Shown here: one piece after another, positions 888-64,000 of the stretch
Layout: each line of letters starts with the position of its first letter
Numbering within the stretch: position 1 is the first letter of the stretch
Notes under the pieces: model-generated
Seen by the model: only the letters and a program-made list of their open reading frames with translations
What the model was told of the DNA's origin: nothing
Databases searched by the model: none
NCBI RefSeq assembly: GCF_017745215.1
Contig: NZ_JAGHZV010000019.1
Span: 1 to 64,000, forward strand
Length of the DNA: 64,000 nucleotides
Source: Sphingomonas sp.
GTDB taxonomy: Bacteria; Pseudomonadota; Alphaproteobacteria; Sphingomonadales; Sphingomonadaceae
Direction: 5' to 3'
Position numbers and translations under genes: made by a program

Positions 888-1229
888 GCCACCATCTTGC
901 GACGCGGCAGGCCGGAATGACAGCATTTCCTTGTGCGTGTCCCTCCGTACACGTTCCCTTGTACGACAATAATGCCATGCTCATGCCACCAACTCGCTCC
1001 GTGATCGGGATGCGACGGAGGCGCCCATGGCCGGGGCTCGGGGAAGGGGAGCGATCCGGCGAAGGCCGGGGATTCGTTCGATCGGAATCGATCTTCAGCG
1101 AAATGGCGGCGTGCGCCGGCGCGGATGCGCGGCGAACGATCGAGGCGAAGCGCCGCGCCGGCACGAAGGGGTGACGGGGCCGGCCACTGCCCGTCGCCGG
1201 TCAACCCCGCATCATTTCCAAGCGGATTC
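888..1229. other. Intergenic stretch, no gene recognised
   Basis: This 342-bp gap separates two leftward genes and should hold the lipocalin promoter near its left end, where the sequence turns less GC-rich (roughly 915-985). Open frames exist on both strands but have no recognisable domain or ribosome site. Nothing else was identified. Confidence 0.4.
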
Positions 1230-2045
1230 TCAGTCCTTGGCGTGGCGCGCGCCCAGCTCGTCCAGATAATTGTAGATCGTGAACTTCGTCGTCCCCAGCC
1301 GCTTCGCGACGCGTTCGACCGCGCCCCGGATCAGGAAGAGCCCGCGCTTCTGCATCCGGTCGACCGAGGACAGCTTCTCCGCCTTCGTCATTCGCGCCGT
1401 CGGCACGTCCTTGGGCTCGAGCGAGGTCTCGATGATGTCGACGATCAGTTCCTCGATGTTCTGCGAACGCGTCTCGGGCTGGAGCATGCTGGAGGAGGCG
1501 GGCATCAGCAGATCGGTGATGTCCTTGAGGATGCGCTCCCTGGTGCCCAGGTCCGAGTTGAGGCAGAAGGCCGCGATCGGTCCCTCGCCGTCATAGGCGA
1601 CCACCGAGGACGACATCAGCGCGGCCCCTTCGCGGCTTTTCGATTCATAGCTGTCGAACACCAGGATCTGATGGTCGGACCCGCTGGGCCTGGCACTCAC
1701 GATATCGAGCAGCGCCTTGTCGCCCGAAGGACCTGCGAGGACCGACTGGCCGATCCGCCGGCCGCTGACATGGCCGTTGAAGATCGACACGATCGAGGCT
1801 TCGGGATGGCGGAGGTCGTGGATGACGATCTCGGTCTGGCTGTCGACGATGGTCGAGACGGCTTCCGAGAGTTTCTTCATCAGCTCGAGGACGATCCCGT
1901 CCGAAACCTGCGTTCCGGCGGCGGTGTCGGAAGCGGGAGCCTTCGCCTTGGCGACGGGGCGGTCGCGCCGGACCGGGTTCTTCGATTCCCGGGCCGTTCC
2001 CACGCGCGGCGATTCGGTCGTCGTCGATGCCATAATTCTTCCCAT
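1230..2045 (-). CDS. YheO/DauR-type transcriptional regulator (PAS-like + HTH)
   Basis: A 271-residue regulator. After a basic, low-complexity tail (about 1-45), residues 50-165 form the YheO-like PAS domain (VDSQTEIVIHDLRHPEASIV, then GPIAAFCLNSDL). The C-terminal 60 residues form a helix-turn-helix of the DauR type (GAVERVAKRLGTTKFTIYNY). DauR in Pseudomonas controls D-amino-acid catabolism, and the neighbouring divergent genes are a PLP dehydratase and RidA, so a role in amino-acid utilisation fits. A second start at 2033 has the better-spaced ribosome site. The 2046-2250 interval is probably shared with the divergent operon. Confidence 0.78.
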   Translation of the reverse strand: MGRIMASTTTESPRVGTARESKNPVRRDRPVAKAKAPASDTAAGTQVSDGIVLELMKKLSEAVSTIVDSQTEIVIHDLRHPEASIVSIFNGHVSGRRIGQSVLAGPSGDKALLDIVSARPSGSDHQILVFDSYESKSREGAALMSSSVVAYDGEGPIAAFCLNSDLGTRERILKDITDLLMPASSSMLQPETRSQNIEELIVDIIETSLEPKDVPTARMTKAEKLSSVDRMQKRGLFLIRGAVERVAKRLGTTKFTIYNYLDELGARHAKD

Positions 2046-2212
2046 ATCCCCTGTTCCACTGCGTGCCGGAGTGGATGGCTGCGTCGCCGCCTCCCGACAG
2101 CGCCTCGCGAGAGAAGCCTCTTCCCAGCGCGGCGTCGCTAGCTAGCCAATGGCGTGGACCAATGGCCAGAAAATTCGGAGAAACATTCGAAATTTTGCTA
2201 TATTTATTTTCC

Positions 2213-2249: not shown

Positions 2250-3173
2250 ATGCTGCACGTGAACACACCGTTGCTCGAGGCGGACCGGTCCTACGCACGG
2301 GCAGGGGTTCCGCTCCTGCTCAAGATGGATGCGCTCCAGCCTTCTGGCAGCTTCAAGCTGCGGGGCGTCGGCCATGCCTGCGCGAAGGCGCGCGAGGCCG
2401 GCGCGGCCAGCATCGTCTGTCCCTCGGGCGGGAATGCCGGATTCTCCGCTGCCTATGCGGCGCGCAAGCTCGGGCTGCCGGCGATCATCGTCGTGCCGGA
2501 GACTACGTCGGCGGAAGTCCGCGACACCATCGCGCTGGTCGGCGCCGAAGTGATTGTCGCGGGCTCGGCGTTCGACGAGGCGCATGAGCACGCACGCGCG
2601 CTGGCCGACGCCGCCGGCGCGGCGCTGATCCATCCGTTCGACGATCCCTTGCTGTGGACAGGGCATGCGACGCTGATCGACGAGATCGTCGCAGCGGGCG
2701 AGCGTTTCGACGTCGTCGTGGCCAGCGTGGGCGGCGGCGGGCTGCTCGCCGGCATCGTCGAGGGATTGCGCCGCAACGGGCTGGGGGACGTGCCCGTGAT
2801 CGCCGTCGAGACCGAGGGCGCGGCGAGCCTGCACCGCAGCATCGCCGAGAAGCGGCTGGTGACGCTGCCTGCCATCACCTCGATCGCCACGTCGCTGGGG
2901 GCCAAGCGCGTCGCGCCCCATGCGCTGGCGCTCGTCGACGAGCATCCGATCGTCAGCGTCACCGTCAGCGACGCCGAGGCGGTCGCCGCCTGCCTCAAGT
3001 TCGCCGATAGGTTCCGCGTCCTGGTCGAGCCGGCATGCGGGGCGGCGCTCGCCGTTGCCGACGTCCATGCCGGCCTGCTGGGGGCCTATCGCCGGCCGCT
3101 GATCGAAGTCTGCGGCGGAGTGGGCGCGTCGATCGGGAAGCTGACCGCGTGGCGCGACGCACTGTCGCCCTGA
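2250..3173 (+). CDS. PLP-dependent serine/threonine dehydratase family enzyme
   Basis: Fold-type II PLP enzyme, about 307 residues, closest in layout to the L-serine/L-threonine dehydratases of the mammalian SDH type. The PLP lysine lies in PSGSFKLRG (Lys36), the substrate loop is SGGNAGFSAA, and the phosphate loop is GGGGL around residue 170. No ACT regulatory domain follows. Starts at 2232 and farther upstream are open, but the family normally begins close to LHVNTPL, favouring 2250; no clear ribosome site helps. The reaction would release ammonia from a hydroxy amino acid through an enamine, which matches the RidA gene 54 bp downstream. The exact substrate is not readable. Confidence 0.8.
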   Translation: MLHVNTPLLEADRSYARAGVPLLLKMDALQPSGSFKLRGVGHACAKAREAGAASIVCPSGGNAGFSAAYAARKLGLPAIIVVPETTSAEVRDTIALVGAEVIVAGSAFDEAHEHARALADAAGAALIHPFDDPLLWTGHATLIDEIVAAGERFDVVVASVGGGGLLAGIVEGLRRNGLGDVPVIAVETEGAASLHRSIAEKRLVTLPAITSIATSLGAKRVAPHALALVDEHPIVSVTVSDAEAVAACLKFADRFRVLVEPACGAALAVADVHAGLLGAYRRPLIEVCGGVGASIGKLTAWRDALSP

Positions 3174-3227
3174 CCCGCGGTGCCGGGCCGAACATCCTGT
3201 CGGATCACATGAGGGAATCGCTCCAAG

Positions 3228-3632
3228 ATGGTGGACTTTTCGACGATCCCGCTGACGCCCGCGCGGCGCAGCGACAATCTGGTTCATATCTCCGGGCAGC
3301 TCGGCTTCGTCGGCCCCGGGCGCCTCATCGAGGGGGGGATTGCCGCGCAGACCCGGCAGACGCTCGAGAATATCCGCACGATCCTGCGCAAGGCGGGCGG
3401 CGATCTCGGCGACGTGGTGAAGACCACGGTATGGCTGACCGACAAATCGAATTTCTCGCCGTTCAACGAGGCCTATGCCGCCGTGTTCGACGGTTGCGAG
3501 CTACCGGCGCGCTCGACCGTGGTGACCGGGTTGCTGATCGATGGCGCGCTCGTCGAGATCGAGGCGCTCGCGCACCTGCCTCTCGCCGCCCCCCCGTCTC
3601 TGCCGGCCGGGAGCGACGATCCCGCCGCCTGA
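3228..3632 (+). CDS. RidA family enamine/imine deaminase
   Basis: A 134-residue protein of the YjgF/YER057c/UK114 family, usual length about 130. It shows the signature core with the conserved arginine in PARSTVV (about residue 105) that contacts the carboxylate of 2-aminoacrylate-type intermediates. RidA hydrolyses reactive enamines released by PLP dehydratases, so its place directly after the dehydratase is a good functional match. It is co-oriented with the esterase, TonB receptor and amidohydrolase downstream. Confidence 0.88.
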   Translation: MVDFSTIPLTPARRSDNLVHISGQLGFVGPGRLIEGGIAAQTRQTLENIRTILRKAGGDLGDVVKTTVWLTDKSNFSPFNEAYAAVFDGCELPARSTVVTGLLIDGALVEIEALAHLPLAAPPSLPAGSDDPAA

Positions 3633-3692
3633 CCCGATGTGCCTCCGTGGCCGGACGGACTTCGGCCGATGGTCTCAAGCGAGGATGTCCCC

Positions 3693-5543
3693 ATGCGTAA
3701 CTTCGTGCTGATCGGCCTTCCCGCCACGGCTGTCGCCGGTGCCGCGGTCATGGCGATGACGGGAACGCCGGCGATCTCCAGGGGCGGCCAGGGGGAGCGA
3801 CTGGTCGTCGCCAACCTCGAGACGCTCTGCACGCCCGCGAGGATCGGCGAGGCACTGGGCGGCATGACTCCCAAGGTCGCGGTCCAGGAGATATCCGACG
3901 GGCCGAAGCTGCCGGGCGGCGCCAAATTCACGGCCGCCACCGCGCAGACGCCCGCCTATTGCCAGGTCACCGGCAGCTTCGTGACCAACGACGAGACGGG
4001 CAAGACCGCCAATTTCCTCGCGACGCTGCCGGCTGATTGGAACGGCAAATACCTGCAACTGGGCTGCGCGAACAATTGCGGCGAGATCCGTTTCATCAAC
4101 AATCCGGCCGAGCCCGGCGTCACCCTGACCAGCCAGGGCTATCCCTTCGAGGCGATCGTCAAGGGCTATGCGATCTTCTCCACCGACGAAGGACACGCCG
4201 GCACGAGCTGGGGCAGCTGGGCGCTGAAGCCGTCGGGCCAGATCGACGACGATGCGATCGAGGATTTCTACGTCCGCGCCAGCCGCACGCTGGCGGTGAT
4301 GGGCAAGCGCTTCACCGTGCAATTCTACCAGCTGGCGAGCGGAACCGCGCAGACGATCGCGCGCGCCTATTTCAGCGGCTGTTCGGGCGGCGGCCGCGAC
4401 GCCTTCGTCGCGGCTTCGACCTATCCCGAGGAATTCGACGGCATCATCGCCGGCTCGCCCTATGCCAACCCGATGGCCGCCGCCTATCAGGCCGGCGGCG
4501 TGGCCTTCGCCCAGATCCGATCCGACGCCGCCGACCTGCCGGTCTCGCTGGTCAACCAGATCGATCCGATCGTGAAGGCGAAATGCGACGCGCTGGACGG
4601 CGTCCGCGACGGGCTCATCCAGAACCCGGCTGCCTGCAATTTCCGGCCCGAGCGCGATCTTCCGCGCTGCGACGGCAAGCGCGCGCGCACCCAATGTTTC
4701 AGCAGCGCGCAGATCGAGACGATCAGCACGTTGATGACCGCGGTGACCGACGAGGACGGCAAGGTCGTGCAGACCGGTTTCGGCGTGGGCGATCTCCACG
4801 CGGCTTTCAGGCTGCCCAGCCGCCCGCAGGACCTGGCCGCGCGCGATCCCTGGCCGACCGATGCGCGCCAGGACGGGCTGTTCGGAGTCGCCAACGGCAA
4901 TCTCAGGATTCTCGCGCACCGGGGCGATCCGGACTTCGCCCTCCGCTCGCTCTTCGCCTTCCGCGCGGGCGGCGCGGGGGCAGTCACCGGCTATCGGGTC
5001 GTTGTCCCGAAGGCCGATGTCGCCATGGCCATGGCGGCGGCACGGCCCGGCATCGGCGACGTGCCCGAGAACGCCGACCGGCTGATCTCGCTGGATCGCA
5101 AGTTCCTGATCTGGCAGAATCTGGGAGACACTGTCCTGTCCCCCTTCGGCTCGATCAATTACTACAAGCGGCTCGCCGCGCGGCACGGCGGCTATGCGAA
5201 GCTGCAGGGCAACGTCCGGCTGTTCGCGCTGCCGGGCACCGATCATTGCAGCAAGGCCGGGCCCGGGCCCAACAATTTCGATGCGCTCGATGCGATGGAG
5301 CATTGGGTGGAGAAAGGCGAGGCGCCCGATGCCATCGTCGCGAGCCTGTACGATCCCGACAATTTCCAGTGGCGAGCCGGCACGCCGCCGCTGCGCACCA
5401 TGCCCTTGTGCAAGTTCCCGACCATGGCGCGATACCACGGCCGCGGCGACATCAACGACGCGGCGAACTGGAGCTGTCCCGCGGGCGATCGGCGCATGCT
5501 GAAGGTCGGGGAGAGCGGCCGTCAGGCTGGCGTAGTCGAGTAG
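3693..5543 (+). CDS. Tannase/feruloyl esterase family protein, secreted
   Basis: A 616-residue protein with a signal-type N-terminus (MRNFVLIGLPATAVAGAAVM). The start at 3693 is chosen because AGCGAGGA precedes it and the signal peptide begins there. The tannase family (PF07519) marks are clear: nucleophile Ser231 in FSGCSGGGRDA, and the acid/base region PGTDHC with the Cys next to His, which pairs with Cys230 in the family's CS-D-HC arrangement. Members hydrolyse feruloyl, galloyl or terephthalate-type esters in the periplasm or outside. With ferulate catabolism 6 kb away it may release hydroxycinnamates, but its own neighbours are a TonB receptor and an amidohydrolase, so this is inference. 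Confidence 0.85.
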   Translation: MRNFVLIGLPATAVAGAAVMAMTGTPAISRGGQGERLVVANLETLCTPARIGEALGGMTPKVAVQEISDGPKLPGGAKFTAATAQTPAYCQVTGSFVTNDETGKTANFLATLPADWNGKYLQLGCANNCGEIRFINNPAEPGVTLTSQGYPFEAIVKGYAIFSTDEGHAGTSWGSWALKPSGQIDDDAIEDFYVRASRTLAVMGKRFTVQFYQLASGTAQTIARAYFSGCSGGGRDAFVAASTYPEEFDGIIAGSPYANPMAAAYQAGGVAFAQIRSDAADLPVSLVNQIDPIVKAKCDALDGVRDGLIQNPAACNFRPERDLPRCDGKRARTQCFSSAQIETISTLMTAVTDEDGKVVQTGFGVGDLHAAFRLPSRPQDLAARDPWPTDARQDGLFGVANGNLRILAHRGDPDFALRSLFAFRAGGAGAVTGYRVVVPKADVAMAMAAARPGIGDVPENADRLISLDRKFLIWQNLGDTVLSPFGSINYYKRLAARHGGYAKLQGNVRLFALPGTDHCSKAGPGPNNFDALDAMEHWVEKGEAPDAIVASLYDPDNFQWRAGTPPLRTMPLCKFPTMARYHGRGDINDAANWSCPAGDRRMLKVGESGRQAGVVE

Positions 5544-5643
5544 CGCGGGCCTGGCGGGAGAACGAGGCCCGCGCGGCTCGGGCAATAACCGCCGCTGCAA
5601 ACCGGTCACGCCAAGGCACCGATGGCCACGCAACGAAATTAAT

Positions 5644-5678
5644 TTGACACAAATTTTTAGCTAGCATACATTTTGTGT
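5644..5678 (+). promoter_or_regulatory. Sigma70-type promoter with inverted repeat, upstream of TonB receptor
   Basis: TTGACA (5644-5649), 17-bp spacer, TACATT (5667-5672) is a good housekeeping promoter in an AT-rich stretch. A 7-bp inverted repeat, ACACAAA (5647-5653) and TTTGTGT (5672-5678), brackets the -10 region and could be an operator. Slightly downstream (5693-5705), AGTTGAATCGACT resembles the TGTTGAATTGA half of the site at 2213. The gap 5544-5835 holds no gene. Confidence 0.55.
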
Positions 5679-5835
5679 AGTTCTTCAATTTTTAGTTGAA
5701 TCGACTCGAGGGCGGCGAGGATCTCGTTCGGATCCCGCGCCGCCCGAAAGCGGCGAGAGCCCGTTCGGATCGCACCGATTTGGAATGAAATAGAACCATA
5801 GACGACATCATATCAGAGATCGGGGGAGTAGTTCG

Positions 5836-8211
5836 ATGAATATGCGCCATCGCAAGCATGCGATCCTCACGGGATCGACCGTCACCGCGATAATGATGCT
5901 CTTCGCTTTTCCTGCTTTCGCCCAGGAAAATACGTCCAACGATACTGACTCGGGGAACGACATCGTCGTCACGGCGCTGAAACGATCCACCAACATCCAG
6001 GAAACGCCGCTGGCGATCACGGCGGTGACGGGCGAGACGCTTGCCGACATGGGGATCACCGACAGTGCGCAGCTGTCGCGCGTCGCGCCGGGGCTGGTGT
6101 TTCGCGAGAACCCCAACGGCGGCGCCCGCGCAATCATCCGCAACGTACAGTCGGCCGGCGAGTCCACGGTCGGCGTCTATTATGACGAGACGCCGCTCGA
6201 CGGATCGGTGGGCACCACCAACGATGCCGGCGGCGCGGCCCCCGAGGTCCGCCTGTTCGACGTCCAGCGTGTCGAGGCGCTGCGCGGGCCGCAGGGCACG
6301 CTCTACGGCGCCGGCTCGATGGCGGGCACGCTGCGGCTGATCTTCAACAAGCCCGCGCTCGACGATTACGAGGGCGCCGCGGCGCTCCAGGGCAACAGCA
6401 TCGCTGGCGGCGAGCTCGGCTACGAGGCGCAGGGCATGGCCAATGTCCCGATCGTCAAGGGCGTGCTGGCCGTGCGGATCGTCGGCTTCTACCGCCAGCG
6501 CGGCGGCTGGCTGGAAAACAGCAAGCTGGGGCTCGAGGACTTCAACGACGGCACCAGCAAGGGCGGCCGCATCATGGTCCGCTTCCAGCCGACCGGCAAT
6601 CTGACGCTGGACGGGCTCGCGACGATCCAGCGCACGCGCGGCTACAACAGCAACTGGTATTTCCCCTCCTATGCCGCAGGCGGCAAGCCCTATGACGCGA
6701 GCTATGCCTCGCTGCAGCCGGTCAAGGACGACCTCGACCTCTACAGCCTCACCGCCAAATGGGACGTCGGCTTCGCGACCGTGACGGGCGTGACGTCCTA
6801 TATGGAGCGCGATCTCAAATTCAATTTCGACACCTCGGCCTTCTTCGCCAATTCCGCCGCCGCGGCGACGACGACCTCGGCCGGCTGCAAGGCCTATAAC
6901 GCCACCGGCGGCGCCAATTGCACGCCCTCGCAGGTGGTCCTGTACCAGCAATATGCGCTCGGCATGTCGCCTTCGACGGCGTATCAGCCGCAGCTCACCA
7001 AGAGCTGGAGCGACGAGCTGCGGATCTCGGGCAACGGTTCGGGGCCGCTCAACTGGACGCTCGGCTTCTTCCACTCGGAGCGGAAGACCGACATCCTGTC
7101 GCAGGTCAATGCGGTCGATCCGGCCACGGGCCTGATGATCACGCCGACGCGGATCGCGCCGGTGACCGTGGGCGGCACGACCTATCCCGCCACCGTCTTC
7201 GTGAACCGCGGCGTGCAGGACAATCTCCGCCAGATCGCACTCTTTGCCGAGGCGAGCTACGACATCACCAGCCGGCTCGGCGTCACTGCCGGCGTGCGCT
7301 ATTTCGATTACCACAAGCGCGTCGACACGGTCACGACGCTGGCCAACTATGTCGTGGGGGCGGTGCCGGTCCCGCCCGCCAGCGCCGCCGCGTCCGAGCA
7401 TGGCGCCGTGTTCAAGTTCAACGCCAACTACAAGCTGACCAGCGACGTCCTCCTCTACGCCAACGCGGCGCAGGGCTTCCGCCCCGGCGGCGTGAACCAG
7501 ATCATCGGGCTGCCCGACGCGCTGGTGCCGTACAAGTCCGACAGCCTCTGGAGCTACGAGATCGGCGCCAAGACCTCCTGGTTCGACCGGGCGCTCACGC
7601 TCAATGCCGACATCTTCCAGATCGATTGGAGCGACATGCAGGTGGCTGCGCAGACGCCCGCGCCGGCGGTGTTCAGCTTCATCACCAACGCGGGCAAGGT
7701 CCGGGTCCAGGGCGCCGAAGTGGAAGTTGGCGCGCGGCCGGTTCAGGGGCTGACGCTCCAGCTCTCCGGCTCGTACATCCTCGCGAAGCTGCGCGGGAAC
7801 CAGGTCGCGCCGAACGGCATCATCGTCAGCGGTGCCGGGCTGAAAGGCGATTATGTGCCCTTCACCCCCAAGTTCAGCGGGCAGGCCTCGGTCGAATATC
7901 GCTATCCCGCCGCCGGCTCGATCCAGCCGTTCTTCCGCGCGGACCTGGCCTATGCCGGCGAATCCTGGACGCAGTTCCGCCGGACCAATGCCGCGCAGCA
8001 GCAGCTCCCCGACTATACGACGGTCGGCGTGCGGCTGGGCATCGACAAGGCCGACGACACATGGTCGTTGAGCCTGTTCGCCAACAACCTGTTCAACACG
8101 GTGGGCATCGTCAACAAGTCGACCTCCGCGCTCTACGGCAGCGTCGCGGCGGTCCGCGCCGTGTCGGTCCTGCCGCGCACGGTCGGCATCGACCTCCGGA
8201 TGAAATTCTGA
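5836..8211 (+). CDS. TonB-dependent outer-membrane receptor
   Basis: A 791-residue receptor with a signal peptide ending in FPAFAQ (about residue 30), a TonB box (DIVVTALKR, about 41-49), a plug domain, and a 22-strand barrel ending in the typical aromatic C-terminus (IDLRMKF). It starts at 5836 behind GGGGGAGTAG. Sphingomonads use such receptors for TonB/ExbBD-driven uptake of aromatics, oligosaccharides and peptides as well as iron complexes. No iron-type signature or FecR pair is present. Its neighbours (tannase-type esterase upstream, exported amidohydrolase 41 bp downstream) suggest uptake of an organic ester or amide processed in the periplasm. Confidence 0.9.
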   Translation: MNMRHRKHAILTGSTVTAIMMLFAFPAFAQENTSNDTDSGNDIVVTALKRSTNIQETPLAITAVTGETLADMGITDSAQLSRVAPGLVFRENPNGGARAIIRNVQSAGESTVGVYYDETPLDGSVGTTNDAGGAAPEVRLFDVQRVEALRGPQGTLYGAGSMAGTLRLIFNKPALDDYEGAAALQGNSIAGGELGYEAQGMANVPIVKGVLAVRIVGFYRQRGGWLENSKLGLEDFNDGTSKGGRIMVRFQPTGNLTLDGLATIQRTRGYNSNWYFPSYAAGGKPYDASYASLQPVKDDLDLYSLTAKWDVGFATVTGVTSYMERDLKFNFDTSAFFANSAAAATTTSAGCKAYNATGGANCTPSQVVLYQQYALGMSPSTAYQPQLTKSWSDELRISGNGSGPLNWTLGFFHSERKTDILSQVNAVDPATGLMITPTRIAPVTVGGTTYPATVFVNRGVQDNLRQIALFAEASYDITSRLGVTAGVRYFDYHKRVDTVTTLANYVVGAVPVPPASAAASEHGAVFKFNANYKLTSDVLLYANAAQGFRPGGVNQIIGLPDALVPYKSDSLWSYEIGAKTSWFDRALTLNADIFQIDWSDMQVAAQTPAPAVFSFITNAGKVRVQGAEVEVGARPVQGLTLQLSGSYILAKLRGNQVAPNGIIVSGAGLKGDYVPFTPKFSGQASVEYRYPAAGSIQPFFRADLAYAGESWTQFRRTNAAQQQLPDYTTVGVRLGIDKADDTWSLSLFANNLFNTVGIVNKSTSALYGSVAAVRAVSVLPRTVGIDLRMKF

Positions 8212-57554: not shown

Positions 57555-58795
57555 CCCCGGCTTCCTTTCGCGTCCTGGGTCTTGTGCGTCGTTAGGCTGA
57601 AGCGCGCCTGCGCCGTGCCGGTGCTCGAGACGAGATCGGCGACGTAGCGCCCCACCGCCGGGCCGTGCTTGAAGCCGTGCCCGCTGCCGCCGCCGACGAT
57701 CCAGGCGTTGGTCCAGGCGGGGTGGCGGTCGATCAGCAGGTCGCCATTGTCGCTGTTCTCATATTGGCAGACTTCGGACGAGGCGAGCGGTCGCTCGGCG
57801 AGGCCGGGGAAGCGGTGCGCGAGATAGGCGCGGACATCGGCCAGCCCCTGATCGGTGATGCGGCGGTCGACGCCGTCGGGATCATAGCGGGGGCCATGCG
57901 CATCGAGCGCGATCTTGAATCCGCGCGCCTCGATGTCGGGGAAGCCGTAATGGAGGTCCGGATCGCCGGCATCGACCCAGGCCGGGAGGTGCGGCGGCGC
58001 GAAGCGCGTGTCGCCGGGCTCGGGGGCGAAGTAGAAGACTTCCTGGCGCGTCGGCACGATCCGGCTCGCCACCACGTCGGGGAAGAGCCTGGGCAGCCAC
58101 GGCCCGCAGGCGAAGACGAAGCGGCCGGCGCTCAGCGTCTCGCCGCCGGTGCCGGTGATCGCGGGCAGCGAGACGCCCCCGGCGCGCGGCGGTTCGACCG
58201 CGAAGGGGCGGAAGCTGCCGCCCGCCTTCACGAAGTCCGCCACCAGCGTCTGGACGCCCCGCCGTGCCATCAGCGCGCCCATCGTCGGCTGCATCACGCC
58301 AACCGCGACGTCGGCGAAGTTCATTTGCGGCCAGCGCTTCGCCAGCTCGGCTTGGCCGAGCTTCTCGATCGGAATGCCGAGGCCGCGCTGGAGCGCGATG
58401 CTCGCGTTGATCCTGGGCGTGTCCTTCGGGTAGATGTAGAGCGCGCCGACGGGGTGGAAGATCGGGCTCTCGTGGCGCTGCGACAGCGCATGCCACTCCG
58501 CCAGCGAATCCCACGCCCAGCGCGTGTAGAGCGGCTCGCCGCCATATTCGGTGCGGATCAGCCGCGTCTCGCCGCCCGAAGATGCCCGCGAATGCGCCGC
58601 ACCCCAGGCGTCCACGAGCAGCACCCGGTCTCCGCGGCGCTGAAGGTTCCACGCCGTCCACGCCCCGAACACGCCTGCGCCGACCACGATCACGTCCCAT
58701 CCGTGCCCGGGCCGGGCGCGGGCAGGGGCGGCGGTGGCGAGCGTACCCGCAGTCGCCAGCCCGCCCAGCATCGTACGCCGCGAGACCTCGCTCAA
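57551..58795 (-). CDS. Tat-exported FAD oxidase, sarcosine oxidase/N-methyl amino acid oxidase-like
   Basis: A 414-residue DAO-family flavoprotein. A Tat motif (SRRTMLGG) begins at residue 5, then FAD motif VIVVGAGVFGAWTAW. The cysteine that carries covalent FAD in monomeric sarcosine oxidase and SolA is present in EVCQYENSDNGDLLIDRHP. It would oxidise an N-alkyl amino acid in the periplasm, making H2O2 and an aldehyde. To keep the Tat signal the start must be TTG at 58795, which overlaps the upstream stop (TTGA). Confidence 0.85.
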   Translation of the reverse strand: MSEVSRRTMLGGLATAGTLATAAPARARPGHGWDVIVVGAGVFGAWTAWNLQRRGDRVLLVDAWGAAHSRASSGGETRLIRTEYGGEPLYTRWAWDSLAEWHALSQRHESPIFHPVGALYIYPKDTPRINASIALQRGLGIPIEKLGQAELAKRWPQMNFADVAVGVMQPTMGALMARRGVQTLVADFVKAGGSFRPFAVEPPRAGGVSLPAITGTGGETLSAGRFVFACGPWLPRLFPDVVASRIVPTRQEVFYFAPEPGDTRFAPPHLPAWVDAGDPDLHYGFPDIEARGFKIALDAHGPRYDPDGVDRRITDQGLADVRAYLAHRFPGLAERPLASSEVCQYENSDNGDLLIDRHPAWTNAWIVGGGSGHGFKHGPAVGRYVADLVSSTGTAQARFSLTTHKTQDAKGSRG

Positions 58796-59271
58796 GGCGC
58801 CTTGTCCGCATCGGGGTGCGCCGCGCGCCAGGCGTCGAGCCGGGCGAGCCACTGCGCAGCGGTGATCGGCCCCTGCGCCCTGGTCTCGCTGTGCTCGGCG
58901 ACGTTCTGGCGCACCTCGAGCCAGAAGGCGGGCCCGGTCTTGAGGTGGAGTTCCTCGGCCTTCCTGTCCATCGTCGCCTGCTGCGCGGGGGTGACGGGCA
59001 TTCTGGGATAGGGCTTGAACAGCAGCACGTCCCAGCCTTCGCCGTCCTCATGGACGAAGAGCTGCGTCGCCGGCTGGCCGCCCGCCTGCGAGACCACGTC
59101 CCACGCCGCGAGCTTGCGGAGGAACGCCTCCTGCCGCCCGGGGGCGAGGCGGAAGACTTCGAACATGGCCTCGGGGAACGGCTCGTCGGCGGGCGCGACG
59201 GGCGTGGTCCAGGCGATCGACGGCGCGAGCACGCCGAGCAGGAGCAGCGACTTCAAGATCGGATGCTTCAT
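58792..59271 (-). CDS. Exported small protein of unknown function
   Basis: A 159-residue protein with signal peptide (MKHPILKSLLLLGVLAPSIA). The mature part has an FEVFRLAPGRQEAFLRKLAA start and VLLFKPYPRM, resembling a dimeric alpha-beta barrel (ferredoxin-like) fold, but this is only suggested by pattern. TTGA overlap with the flavoprotein gene. GGGAGAGG before ATG at 59271 supports the start. An 11-bp palindrome TGGGTTACCCA (59332-59342) lies upstream and may mark its own promoter. Confidence 0.62.
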   Translation of the reverse strand: MKHPILKSLLLLGVLAPSIAWTTPVAPADEPFPEAMFEVFRLAPGRQEAFLRKLAAWDVVSQAGGQPATQLFVHEDGEGWDVLLFKPYPRMPVTPAQQATMDRKAEELHLKTGPAFWLEVRQNVAEHSETRAQGPITAAQWLARLDAWRAAHPDADKAP

Positions 59272-59356
59272 CGAACCTCTCCCTGAAAGGCCTTGCGAAG
59301 GATTAGCCGCGCGCGCGATGGCGCCGGCAAGTGGGTTACCCATTTTCCCCGGGCAC

Positions 59357-59917
59357 CTACCCGGCGCCGCGGCGGACGCCGAGGAACCGGTAGTTGCGGT
59401 GCCAGTCGCCGTCGTACCAGATGAGGTCGAGCGTCCGTTCCTCGCCGTCGAACCACAGGACGGGCACGCTGAGCTTGCCGTCGATCTCGACCACCGAGCC
59501 TAGCCCGACCACCGGATGGCGCCGCTGCGCTTCGGGAAAGGCCTCGCCGAACGCGAGGATATCGCCGGTCTCGGCGGGCTCGAAGCCTGCTGCGCGGATT
59601 TCGCGGATCGCGTCCTCGGACGAGAGGCTGCGGCGGAAGTGGAAGATCTCCAGCGCCTTCTCGCCGACCTGCGCGTCGGTGACGGGGAAGCGTTGCTCGG
59701 TGAGGTCGGGATTGCGCCAGCCATAATCGCCGCGCGCGACACGGTCCTCGAAGGCCAGGCCGGCCGGAACCGAGAGCGCCGAGCCGATCGACGCGGGCGC
59801 CTCGAGCCGCAACGCGAGCTCGCCCGAGATCACGCGCAGCACCGCGTCGCGGCCGCCTGCCTTCTCGATCAGCTGGTCGATCTGCTCGTCGGTCAAGGCT
59901 TGCACGGCAACGGTCAT
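59357..59917 (-). CDS. Conserved protein of unknown function (module shared with the 61832 gene)
   Basis: A 186-residue cytoplasmic protein. N-terminal segment LTDEQIDQLIEKAGGRDAVL...SGE matches that of the protein at 61832. The rest contains GWRNPDLTEQRFP, HFRRSLSSEDAIREIRAAGF and WYDGDWHRNYRFLGVRR. From memory these blocks are seen in conserved hypothetical proteins of candidate phyla radiation genomes; no enzymatic motif is known. GGAG before ATG at 59917 supports the start. Eleven bases after the ornithine-cyclodeaminase-like gene. Confidence 0.65.
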   Translation of the reverse strand: MTVAVQALTDEQIDQLIEKAGGRDAVLRVISGELALRLEAPASIGSALSVPAGLAFEDRVARGDYGWRNPDLTEQRFPVTDAQVGEKALEIFHFRRSLSSEDAIREIRAAGFEPAETGDILAFGEAFPEAQRRHPVVGLGSVVEIDGKLSVPVLWFDGEERTLDLIWYDGDWHRNYRFLGVRRGAG

Positions 59918-59928
59918 GGCGGCTCCGA

Positions 59929-60876
59929 TCAAAGGTCGACGACACGGCCGGCGGATCGCTCGATCGCGGCGCGGTGGACGAGGTTGGCGACGACGAGGTC
60001 CTCGATCGCATGGCCCATCGCCTTGTAGACGGTGACCTCTGCGGCGGCTCGGCGGCCCGGCCGGAGCCCGAGCAGCAGCTCGCCGAGCTCGGTTCCCCGG
60101 CCGGGATCGATCCCGCGGAGCTCGGCGCAGCCGGCGGGTGGCGGCGCGAACGCGATCCGGGCCTCGACGAAGAGCGTGTGCGCGGCGGCGATCGCCGGGT
60201 CGAGCTCGCCGCCCGGCGGGGCGTAGCCGACCGAGCTGATATGCTGCCCGGGCTGGACCCAGTCCGCCAGGACCAACGGCTCGGCGGATTGTGAGCAGAG
60301 GCAGATGATGTCCGACGCGCGGACCGCTGCCTCGATGCTGTCGGCTACCACGACGCGATCGTCGCGCGCGGCGAAGGCCTCGGCGCTCGCCCGGCTGCGC
60401 GAGGCGACGAACACCGTCTCCAGCTCGAAGTGGCGCGACATCAGCTCGAGGTGCGCCCGGCCCTGCACCCCCGCGCCGAGGATCGTCATCACGCGCGATT
60501 CCGGCCGCGCGAGCAGTTTCGCCGCGAGCGTCGCCGCACCGGCGGTGCGCATCGCAGTGACATGCTCGGCGTCGAGCAGCGCGGAGACCGCGCCGGTCGC
60601 CGGGTCCATCAGCACGATCAGCCCTTGGTGCGAGGGGAGGCCGGCCGCGGCGTTCCCAGGGAAGATCGACACCAGCTTGGTGCCGAACTGCAGTTCCGGC
60701 ACGAACCCCGGCATCGTCAGCAGCGACCCCTTGTCGCCCGCCGACAGCGCGCTCCGCGCCGGCGCATCCACGCGCGGATCCGCGCTGATCGCCCTGAACC
60801 CCTCTGCCAGCGCGGCGAGCAGCGCGTCGGCGTCGAGCAGCCGCTCGACGTCGTGCCGGGCGAGCAGCAGCGCCAT
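59929..60876 (-). CDS. Ornithine cyclodeaminase/mu-crystallin family NAD(P)-dependent enzyme
   Basis: A 315-residue protein with MTILGAGVQGRAHLELM as the nucleotide-binding motif (about 128-144), preceded by TAMRTAGAATLAAKLLA, the family's substrate-binding helix; SVGYAPPGGELD is also typical. Members are ketimine reductases, alanine dehydrogenases or cyclodeaminases. Its ATG overlaps the amidase stop (TGATG). With an amidase and an N-alkyl oxidase in the same unit, a cyclic imine or imino acid is a likely substrate; inferred. Confidence 0.85.
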   Translation of the reverse strand: MALLLARHDVERLLDADALLAALAEGFRAISADPRVDAPARSALSAGDKGSLLTMPGFVPELQFGTKLVSIFPGNAAAGLPSHQGLIVLMDPATGAVSALLDAEHVTAMRTAGAATLAAKLLARPESRVMTILGAGVQGRAHLELMSRHFELETVFVASRSRASAEAFAARDDRVVVADSIEAAVRASDIICLCSQSAEPLVLADWVQPGQHISSVGYAPPGGELDPAIAAAHTLFVEARIAFAPPPAGCAELRGIDPGRGTELGELLLGLRPGRRAAAEVTVYKAMGHAIEDLVVANLVHRAAIERSAGRVVDL

Positions 60877-61820
60877 CAGTCGAAGATCTGCCGCGGCATG
60901 TAGAAGGAGACGACGTAATTCGGCATGTCGACGATCTCGTTGATGCGGAGATCGCCCGCGACGCTGCACAGCATATAGGCGTCGACCGCGCTCAGCCCGT
61001 GCAGCCGCGCCAGCCGGTCGATCATCCCGCGCACCGCGTCGCGGCTCGCCTCGCGCAGGTCGGGGCCGATGCCCATCGTCGCTTCATAGCCGCGGCCGTC
61101 GACGTGGCGCGTCACCGGCTCGTGCGTGACGAAGCGCGGGAAGCGCAGGCCTTCGCCCTTCACCAGGTCGAGCTTCACCGTCACGCCCATCGGCGATTCG
61201 ATCGCGGTGCCGCAGACCTCGCCGTCGCCCTGCGCGCAATGCGGGTCGCCGATCGAGAAGAGCGCGCCCGGAACCTCGACGGGGAGGTAGACGTCGACCC
61301 CGGCGACCAGGTCGCGCAGGTCCATGTTCCCGCCGGTGCGACGGGGCGGCAGCGTGCTGAACTCGCCTGGCGCGGCCTGCTCGACCGCCATGATCCCGCA
61401 GAAGGGTCGGAGCGGTATCCTGGCGACCGACGAGAAGAGCGTCGGCGCGGCCAGGCTCCGGTCGTAATGCCAGATGTTGAGCGCCGGATCGGGGAATTCG
61501 TCGGCGAGCAGCCCGAAGCCGGGGATCAGCGCGGTCCAGCCCCAGCCGCTGCCGGCGAACTCGAGCACGCTGATCTTGAGCGCGTCGCCCGGCTCGGCGC
61601 CGTCGACGTGGATCGGGCCGACTGCCGGATTGACGTTGCCGAAGTCGAGCGTCTCGATGTCCGCCACGGTCGAGCTGGCGGACAATTGCCCGCAGACCGT
61701 GTCGATCTCCTCGAAGGTGACGACGTCGCCCGGCGCGACGGTGCGCGCGGGCGGATGCGCGTTGCAGAAGCTGAGGTGCTGCTGGGCGGCGTGGATGGTG
61801 TGGCACTTCGCATGCGTCAT
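60876..61820 (-). CDS. Acetamidase/formamidase family protein
   Basis: A 314-residue FmdA/AmdA-family amidase. Characteristic parts: NVNPAVGPIHVDGAEPGDAL (about 65-84, with the pathway's conserved Gly/Asp), FSIGDPHCAQGDGEVCGTAIE (about 190-210, including His and catalytic-site residues). It hydrolyses small aliphatic amides to acid and ammonia. It starts 11 bp after the gene at 61832 and overlaps the next gene by 1 bp. Confidence 0.9.
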   Translation of the reverse strand: MTHAKCHTIHAAQQHLSFCNAHPPARTVAPGDVVTFEEIDTVCGQLSASSTVADIETLDFGNVNPAVGPIHVDGAEPGDALKISVLEFAGSGWGWTALIPGFGLLADEFPDPALNIWHYDRSLAAPTLFSSVARIPLRPFCGIMAVEQAAPGEFSTLPPRRTGGNMDLRDLVAGVDVYLPVEVPGALFSIGDPHCAQGDGEVCGTAIESPMGVTVKLDLVKGEGLRFPRFVTHEPVTRHVDGRGYEATMGIGPDLREASRDAVRGMIDRLARLHGLSAVDAYMLCSVAGDLRINEIVDMPNYVVSFYMPRQIFD

Positions 61821-61831
61821 CGGCGTCTCCC

Positions 61832-62440
61832 TCACTCGGCGTCGTCGGAACGGCCGCGCGCCACCACGCGGCCGCCGCCGCGCCACCCGCGCGGATAGGT
61901 GATCGAATAGACTTCGAGGTCCCAGCCGCCGTCGCGCCAATAGGTGTCCATCGCCCAGAGCGCGCCGCGCACGTCGGCGACGTAGAAGAAGAACCAGCGC
62001 GTGCGGTCGGCCTGCTTGAGGAAGGCATGGGCCTGGGCGAGCGCGACCCGGGCGCTCCCTTCGCCGCCGAGAGCCGCGAAGATCGGTCCGTCGACGCTGC
62101 CTTTCAGCAAGGTGCAGGGACGGAGCACCGTGGCGGGCACCGCTTCCTCGACGAGGTCGAGGAAGTGGCTCGCGAAATCCTCGCCGATGTAGCTGATCGG
62201 CAACTCGCCGTCGCGGTTGACCACGAATGTCTCGCGCACGACGAAGCGCTCGGTCCCCGGCACCGCGACCGGCGCGCCGACGCCGAGCAGGTCGTCGACC
62301 ACTTCGCGCGGCGCTTCCAGCACATCGCCGGGCTCGCCGACCACCCATTCGCCCGACAGCAATTTCTCGACGCCGCGCAGGCCGCCGACCCGATGGATCA
62401 GCGCTTCGGTCTGGTCGGCGTCGAGGTCGTCCACTTGCAT
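61832..62440 (-). CDS. Conserved protein of unknown function
   Basis: A 202-residue protein. N-terminal LDADQTEALIHRVGGLRGVE...LSGE resembles the 59357 protein. Later blocks include RFVVRETFVVNRDGELPISY, SVDGPIFAALGGEG and DTYWRDGGWDLEVYSI, which from memory recur in conserved hypothetical proteins of candidate phyla radiation bacteria. No active site is recognised. CAGGAG precedes the start. It lies between the M24 peptidase and amidase genes of the same unit. Confidence 0.65.
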   Translation of the reverse strand: MQVDDLDADQTEALIHRVGGLRGVEKLLSGEWVVGEPGDVLEAPREVVDDLLGVGAPVAVPGTERFVVRETFVVNRDGELPISYIGEDFASHFLDLVEEAVPATVLRPCTLLKGSVDGPIFAALGGEGSARVALAQAHAFLKQADRTRWFFFYVADVRGALWAMDTYWRDGGWDLEVYSITYPRGWRGGGRVVARGRSDDAE

Positions 62441-62496: not shown

Positions 62497-63165
62497 TCAC
62501 TGGAGCAGCAGGTCTTCGTGGAAGGCGCTGAACGGCCGGCTGGGGTGGCGGATCTGGATCTCGAGCACCCACAGCCCGGCGCTCGGTGCATAGTCCGCTT
62601 CGAGCAGCGCACCGTCGTGGACGACGGCGTGGGGGAAGTCCGAGAGCCGGTGCCCGCCCAATTCGAGGTTGAGCGCCCAGCCGAGCCGTCCGGCCTCGCG
62701 CTCCGCGAAGCGATAGAGCTCGAGGCCGCTCAGCCCGTCGGCCAGCCAGCGCGTGCGGGTGGTGTCGAACACTGCCTTCACGTCGCGCGCGGCGCGGTGC
62801 ATCTCGGGGTCGCGGCCGACGACGAAGGTTTCGCCGGCGTCACCCTCATGGCCTTGCCAGACCGGGCCGATATCGAGGAAGAAGATGTCCTCTTGGCCGA
62901 GCACCACGCCGGGCTCGGAAGGCTCCCCGAACTGCTTGAGCGTGTTGATCCCGAAGCGGACGTGCGGGGCGTGCCAGCCGCGCAGCATGCCTCGCTCCTT
63001 GAGCGTGCGCTTGAGCAGCGCGAGCGCGTCCGCCTCGGCCATCCCCGGCACGATCGCGCCGGCGACCTCGTGGATCAGCGCGCGGGTGCGATCGCGCGTC
63101 TCTAGCAGCAGTGCACGGTCGAACCGCGCTCCGCTGCGTTCCTGCTCGATCTTCAGGGGCTCCAA
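62497..63165 (-). CDS. M24 family metallopeptidase-like protein
   Basis: A 222-residue 'pita-bread' fold protein without the N-terminal creatinase domain. All five metal ligands are visible: Asp in FLDIGPVW, Asp in HEGDAGETF, His in FPHAVV, Glu in VLEIQI and Glu in FHEDLLL. M24 proteins include Xaa-Pro aminopeptidases, creatinase and ectoine hydrolase. The frame begins with TTG at 63165 and the next Met is 41 residues in, so TTG is taken. First gene of the leftward cluster, facing a LysR gene. Confidence 0.82.
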   Translation of the reverse strand: MEPLKIEQERSGARFDRALLLETRDRTRALIHEVAGAIVPGMAEADALALLKRTLKERGMLRGWHAPHVRFGINTLKQFGEPSEPGVVLGQEDIFFLDIGPVWQGHEGDAGETFVVGRDPEMHRAARDVKAVFDTTRTRWLADGLSGLELYRFAEREAGRLGWALNLELGGHRLSDFPHAVVHDGALLEADYAPSAGLWVLEIQIRHPSRPFSAFHEDLLLQ

Positions 63166-63366: not shown

Positions 63367-64000
63367 ATGTCGCGTCTGACACTCTCTCAGCTGACCGCCT
63401 TCCTGAAGCTCGCGGAGACCGCCAGCTTCCGGGATGCCGCGACGCAGCTCGGTGTCTCGCAGCCGGCGCTCAGCCGCACGATCCAGCACATCGAGACGCG
63501 CGTCGGCGTCCGCCTGTTCGACCGCGACACGCGCACCGTGACGCTCACGCCCGCGGGCGAGCGGCTCCACCCGCTCGCGATCCGGCTGCTCGAGGATTAT
63601 GAGACGGTCTTCCGCGAGCTCCACGAGTTCGTCGAGGGGCGCGAGGGCGTGATCCGCATCGCCGGGCTGCCTTCGGTCGCCTCGGCGCTGCTGCCGCCGG
63701 CGATCCAGAGCTTCCAGGCACGCTATCCCGCGGTGCGCATCGAAATCTGGGAAGACGTCGGCGACCAGGTCCACAATGCCGTGCGCGAGCGCCGCGCCGA
63801 CATGGGCATCGCCCCGCCGCCCGACCTCGCCGGCGACCTGCGCTACCAGGAATTGCTCAAGGACAGGCTCGTGCTGGTCTGCCGCCATGACGATCCGCTT
63901 GCGGAGGGAATCGAGCATCCCTGGTCGGTGTTCGCCGATCGCCGCTTCATCACCATGTCGCAGGAGACCGGGCTGCGGCGGATGGTCGAGAGCGGGATCG
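63367..64000 (+). CDS. LysR-type regulator (partial, cut by right edge)
   Basis: The first 211 residues of a LysR protein: HTH SFRDAATQLGVSQPALSRTI at 20-39 and start of the effector domain (GVIRIAGLPSVASALLPPAI). It is divergent from the M24/amidase cluster with a 201-bp interval between, so it is the probable regulator of that cluster. The C-terminal part lies outside the window. Confidence 0.88.
   Translation, partial: MSRLTLSQLTAFLKLAETASFRDAATQLGVSQPALSRTIQHIETRVGVRLFDRDTRTVTLTPAGERLHPLAIRLLEDYETVFRELHEFVEGREGVIRIAGLPSVASALLPPAIQSFQARYPAVRIEIWEDVGDQVHNAVRERRADMGIAPPPDLAGDLRYQELLKDRLVLVCRHDDPLAEGIEHPWSVFADRRFITMSQETGLRRMVESGI

Follow-up and report, generated by a model that had tools for sequence, protein, structure and literature searches.

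Two proteins of a Sphingomonas metabolic operon are probably frozen homologues of hypermutated targets found in candidate phyla radiation genomes

The locus studied here raises the question of what two proteins without recognizable families do among the enzymes of a bacterial metabolic operon. The window is a stretch of 64,000 nucleotides from Sphingomonas sp. (assembly GCF_017745215.1, contig NZ_JAGHZV010000019.1, positions 1 to 64,000), and within a tightly packed run of minus-strand genes it encodes P0001 (59357-59917, minus strand, 186 amino acids, ATG at 59917) and P0002 (61832-62440, minus strand, 202 amino acids, ATG at 62440). P0002 matched no Pfam, NCBIfam or PHROGs family. P0001 matched no Pfam or PHROGs family, and its sole NCBIfam match was far under the cut-off. 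Searches of PDB sequences with either protein returned no credible match. An earlier note on this DNA likened blocks of both proteins to conserved hypothetical proteins from genomes of the candidate phyla radiation (CPR). We find that P0001 and P0002 are probably homologues, frozen in sequence, of proteins that serve as targets of diversity-generating retroelements (DGRs) in CPR bacteria; we call their families type 1 and type 2, respectively.

We searched for relatives in GTDB species genomes, using P0002 and two further sequences as seeds and confirming candidates by tblastn with P0002. Fifteen loci were confirmed from 44 pattern matches (E 6e-29 to 9e-15). By title, seven of these are CPR (Moran-, Doudna-, Vogel-, Nomura-, Harrison- and Giovannonibacteria, and "Patescibacteria group"), seven are called only "bacterium", and one "Spirochaetia". 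P0001 had matches at E <= 0.1 in 4/14 of the P0002-positive genomes, three with E of at most 2e-21 (best 1.8e-29) and the fourth only at 0.003. Homology extends across the core and the DGR variable region in both families: for type 2 in the 15 tblastn loci (alignment A4), and for type 1 in genome G203 (E 1.8e-29), whose gene has a template repeat. A Pfam scan of 16 members of alignment A4 gave a single weak Imm31 match (E 0.0082, 1/16) and a PHROGs scan of the same 16 gave no family, nor did a Pfam scan of the seven members of alignment A3. With profiles, type 1 was found in 21 of 192 genomes from the phylum to which the Moranbacteria locus belongs, and type 2 in 4 of 101 CPR-phylum genomes sampled around G203, G203 itself counted. 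Thus the note's link to CPR genomes was correct for both proteins, and the families reach well outside the Sphingomonadales. Close to home they are rare. Each protein was found only in its own genome among 196 sampled from the order, as were the type-2 profile in the class (1/337) and the type-1 profile in the phylum (1/349). Beyond three genomes of the window's own genus, all confident relatives belong to CPR/Patescibacteria or other small metagenome-assembled genomes. Scans of viral contigs gave no confirmed relative of P0001 or P0002. Among the type-1-like proteins we also observed one of 317 amino acids (L022 in genome G207, 1105-2055, minus strand) that, by eye, apparently carries two type-1-like C-terminal segments in tandem.

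A DGR is defined by a target gene, a template repeat, a reverse transcriptase (RT) and adenine-specific substitution (PMC3240598; PMC8987985). All of these parts were found around the CPR-type relatives. In 10 of the 15 type-2 loci and in the type-1 locus L018, a second copy of the gene's 3' end lies a few hundred bases further downstream. The type-2 genes and their repeats differ at 193 columns in total, with gaps counted; the downstream copy has an adenine at 174 of these and the gene at 2. In L018, all 17 substitutions fall at template adenines (17/17). Across type 1, after we had dropped frames that matched the profile over a short stretch only or not as far as the C-terminal end, and with about 1.5 kb of flank searched, 6 of 26 distinct frames had a template repeat, and 104 of 116 substitutions were at template adenines. 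The adenine bias was strong in five of these six repeats and weak in the sixth (L078, 13/20). An RT (PF00078) is present in 13 of the 14 genomes reached through loci L003-L017; the window genome (G000) has none. In eight of the 15 type-2 loci and in L065, the RT lies approximately 0.8-0.9 kb downstream of the gene, beyond the repeat and on the same strand. Because these four parts occur together, we conclude from the sequences that the type-1 and type-2 families are DGR targets in these CPR-type genomes.

We then compared the window proteins with their orthologues in the genus. A strong P0001 match was present in 3 of 295 genus genomes: the window's own, G437 (64%) and G480 (62%). Two further P0001 matches, at E 5e-4 and 8e-4, came without a match to the operon. 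Template-adenine changes of the CPR loci were mapped onto the window proteins, and a type-2 column was called DGR-variable if two or more of the 10 loci varied there, which gave 18 columns. All three genus members agree at 16 of these 18, versus 62 of the remaining 139 (Fisher p = 3e-4); among the other columns within the variable span, 10 of 16 are identical. In the CPR rows of the type-2 family the order is reversed, with identity of 0.27 at DGR-variable columns versus 0.58 elsewhere. In P0002 the segment matching the variable region comprises residues 161-190 (61871-61960, minus strand) and in P0001 residues 161-182 (59372-59437, minus strand). For both proteins this segment, which was picked from the variable region, ranked first in conservation across the three orthologues among 173 and 165 windows of the same length. 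Identical residues within these segments are encoded by a different codon at 8/20 and 9/18 positions (methionine and tryptophan excluded); therefore, selection holds the protein rather than the DNA. The conserved segment of each genus protein is the one that CPR bacteria hypermutate, while the N-terminal module described below decays.

If the two proteins were still being diversified, parts of a DGR should be found elsewhere in these genomes. No RVT_1 (PF00078) match was found in G000 or in G437. G480 has a single RT of 452 amino acids on another contig, with no target alongside. This RT (L097, G480:C1, 991-3138) adjoins a small open reading frame (ORF) with hydrophobic stretches and is reminiscent of what we take to be defence-type RTs. 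A protein search of G000 gave one match for P0001 at E <= 1 and one for P0002 at E <= 0.001, and thus no second C-terminal copy of either. At the DNA level, the 70.5-kb contig of G000 contains no repeat of the 3' end of either gene, only chance matches of 20-22 bases; in both congeners, the 20 kb surrounding the operon likewise showed only random matches, 20-25 bases long. To gauge such searches, we note that ten CPR loci have a template repeat and that tblastn with P0002 detected it in 6 of them. An RT, a template repeat and a hypervariable target region, the parts of a functional DGR cassette, are thus all missing from what was found in G000. We reject an active DGR, given that G000 has no RVT_1 match, that no second C-terminal copy was found by protein search of G000 or DNA search of its 70.5-kb contig, and that the variable-region segment is conserved. 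One version of this idea is that an RT encoded at another site of the genome still diversifies the proteins in trans, as some CPR targets have a template repeat and no RT within 12 kb (for example L007 and L011). We consider diversification in trans highly improbable: the only RT is the one in G480, the protein search of G000 and the DNA search of its contig gave no second C-terminal copy, and no segment of either protein is more conserved than the variable region.

Families otherwise seen in CPR-type genomes could also have entered the assembly as CPR contamination or through mis-binning of the window's contig. Two observations speak clearly against this, leaving the idea a vanishingly small chance: GC content at third codon positions (GC3) is 0.90 and 0.89 for the two genes, within the 0.88-0.93 of their neighbours, and the same operon is present in three assemblies. 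Since GC3 lies within the range of the neighbours, any transfer must be old or fully ameliorated.

The earlier note had also claimed that the two proteins share an N-terminal segment and then diverge. Residues 8-33 of P0001 (59819-59896, minus strand) and residues 6-31 of P0002 (62348-62425, minus strand) align without gaps over 26 residues (LTDEQIDQLIEKAGGRDAVLRVISGE and LDADQTEALIHRVGGLRGVEKLLSGE), with 10/26 identical. BLASTP of P0001 versus P0002 gave E = 0.001 across 59 amino acids, and none of 10,000 shuffles attained the ungapped score of the first 45 residues (9 of 3,000 did so for the full length). The similarity between the N-termini is therefore real, although the motif proposed for it, L-D-x-x-Q, is strictly L-[TD]-x-x-Q. 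Divergence after the module was also borne out, as a profile comparison of both families returned a probability of 0.3%, on which we reject two paralogues with a common core. The module alone was then used to search the ORFs of the fetched loci, excluding loci of the window's genus. The P0002 module matched the starts of L024 (E 2.4e-5) and L003 (E 0.0065), both from genome G196; the P0001 module matched L024 at 0.0047 and L003 only at 0.47. No other ORF of these loci reached E 1 with either module, and the G437 module copy used as a query gave nothing under E 0.65. A profile built from three modules gave 7.5e-9 for L024 and 6.5e-5 for L003. The L024 protein (G196, 994-1578, minus strand) carries this module at its start and belongs to a third family, ending in RWVFVAPRK. 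If the chosen start codons are right, the module is shortened or lost in P0002 of G437 and in both proteins of G480; judging from this, it seems dispensable for the fixed binding role proposed below.

We also asked what fold the former variable region might be displayed on. An AlphaFold2 model of P0002, made with 15 CPR-type rows, had a mean predicted local distance difference test (pLDDT) score of 85.7, mostly above 93 over residues 51-180, and is confident for the core domain (residues 51-195; 61856-62290, minus strand). The N-terminal module is predicted to form two helices, followed by a disordered linker at residues 36-48. Foldseek with this model found nothing significant (E > 0.7). With VIA-align, C-type lectin domain proteins made up 14 of the top 15 rows, some of them recognized by name, with Z of 5.2 to 3.8, root-mean-square deviation of 3.2-4.5 and 87-98 aligned residues, values that are middling by the tool's scale. 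Roux et al. 2021 describe a C-type lectin fold for annotated variable regions (PMC8144416).

Several results weigh against reading P0001 and P0002 as frozen DGR-target homologues. In the type-1 family the column test was not significant, with 14/19 versus 73/138 identical (p = 0.07) and, at a looser threshold, 16/24 versus 71/133 (p = 0.16); other type-1 columns within the variable span are identical at 10/14, so there is no contrast there. The conservation comparison comprises three orthologues only. No template repeat was found in the examined DNA of 5 of the 15 type-2 and 20 of the 26 type-1 frames. The nearest full-length relatives, L003 and L019, both from G196, likewise had no template repeat in the loci searched; despite two RT matches in the G196 genome, their sequences do not give evidence that they are themselves diversified. 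Among the fetched loci, G196 is also the only CPR-type genome in which the N-terminal module was found. The modelled similarity of P0002 to C-type lectins is weak, and P0001 yielded a single-sequence model with a pLDDT of 35 that was not used in the fold search. Lastly, the direction of the presumed transfer is drawn from distribution and not from a rooted tree.

The genes around P0001 and P0002 give the pair a defined setting. The conserved operon opens with a protein of the M24 family, which has a metallopeptidase fold (62497-63165, minus strand). P0002 follows, then an enzyme of the acetamidase/formamidase family (FmdA_AmdA; 60876-61820, minus strand), an enzyme of the ornithine cyclodeaminase/mu-crystallin family (OCD, imine reductase-like; 59929-60876, minus strand) and P0001. 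A divergent LysR regulator (63367-64000, plus strand) continues beyond the end of the window and is kept in both congeners. The order LysR, then M24, P0002, amidase, OCD and P0001 is the same in all three genomes, and the amidase was found at E <= 1e-60 in exactly the three genus genomes with strong P0001 matches. Beyond the window, a gene group adjoining the LysR gene (L099, G000:C10:62001-70539, 2314-7534) encodes an NCS1 permease of the cytosine/purine/allantoin type, an S-Me-THD-like protein (PF06032/PF20906), a TonB receptor and a RidA-family protein. The S-Me-THD-like gene is present in G437 and an NCS1 permease in G480. From these family assignments, the LysR-side genes and the operon look like one catabolic island for an N-heterocycle, and the operon may serve to import and hydrolyse a cyclic nitrogen compound, for example a hydantoin, with imine chemistry. 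A literature search for "thiohydantoin desulfurase" together with ergothioneine found nothing. Directly after P0001 lies a hypothetical protein of 183 amino acids without a Pfam match (58792-59343, minus strand). It has a 70% identical copy at a different place in the G437 locus and no counterpart within 20 kb around the operon in G480.

The tight gene packing and the co-occurrence with the amidase would also suit another explanation, in which P0001 and P0002 serve the amidase or the OCD enzyme as catalytic or structural subunits. Their likeness to DGR targets would then reflect an old shared fold, with the CPR families derived from such housekeeping proteins, and frozen surfaces would be expected of obligate subunits. 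The distribution described above argues against this, as the profiles found only the window's own genome in the samples of the class (type 2) and the phylum (type 1), but found both types in genomes of CPR phyla. In addition, relatives of the M24 protein and the amidase on three plasmids have different neighbours (a fourth plasmid record is unannotated), and neither P0001 nor P0002 had a match at E <= 0.01 in 72,556 plasmid records. We therefore regard the subunit explanation as unlikely.

Reading the pair as frozen DGR-target homologues, we propose the following model. P0001 and P0002 would be two proteins of the DGR-target type with unrelated cores and a common small N-terminal helical module, whose CPR relatives, on the evidence of their sequences, undergo hypermutation by a DGR reverse transcriptase with a template repeat as the source. 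The ancestor of a few species in the genus would have gained both proteins without the mutating machinery; diversification would thereby have been lost, and one version of each binding surface fixed. Each protein might then be expressed along with the M24 protein, the amidase and the OCD enzyme and bind a single fixed partner in the cytoplasm, most likely by docking to one operon enzyme or by holding a labile pathway intermediate. We see about an even chance that they are dedicated cytoplasmic binders for an operon enzyme or intermediate. The fuller scenario is more tentative, and we lean slightly against it: two DGR-evolved binders with a shared docking module would have been captured as a pair and frozen once they had a useful specificity, and would now be pathway-specific scaffolds or intermediate-holders. 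In that scenario, the ready-made binders taken up by one bacterium would be products of a hypermutation system that belongs to another lineage.

It had been suggested that finding both proteins in one operon could give a first functional clue. The operon does provide these orphan families with a defined, testable setting; because the families are DGR targets in CPR bacteria, however, the clue runs mainly from CPR to the operon. A frozen pair without an RT, placed amid named enzyme families, makes the role of CPR-type DGR targets testable, since there is one fixed surface, there are few candidate partners and, should the strain prove culturable, the genetics would be simple. If the model is right, even a very large phylogenetic distance does not prevent hypermutated proteins from being domesticated for metabolism. 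A literature search by title and abstract start returned no description of RT-less CPR-type targets in a metabolic operon.

Among known systems, Mtd of Bordetella phage and TvpA of Treponema are DGR proteins with a C-type lectin fold, in which one fold displays a binding face. By analogy, the window proteins would work alike, with one fold showing a binding face. They differ from Mtd and TvpA in having no sequence relation detected in the PDB searches, and the similarity in fold is weak. A further comparison is with the CPR/Patescibacteria targets surveyed by Roux et al. 2021, where DGRs are described as common in CPR and their targets as lacking known domains (PMC8144416). The window proteins resemble these targets by homology, with a C-terminal segment corresponding to the variable region and no known domain. 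The same survey describes CPR targets as typically without a recognizable transmembrane or other conserved domain, for a reason it leaves open (PMC8144416); the window proteins are similar, as inspection by eye, without a predictor, showed neither a membrane nor a signal segment. They differ from the CPR targets in that no RT or template repeat was found, the surface is conserved, and the genes lie in a metabolic operon. That a target homologue can occur without a DGR has a precedent in a crAss-like phage, whose collar-fibre gene is a DGR target and is described as conserved in phages without DGRs (PMC8867640). The collar-fibre gene, however, encodes a phage structural protein, whereas here two proteins are fixed in a catabolic operon of a bacterium.

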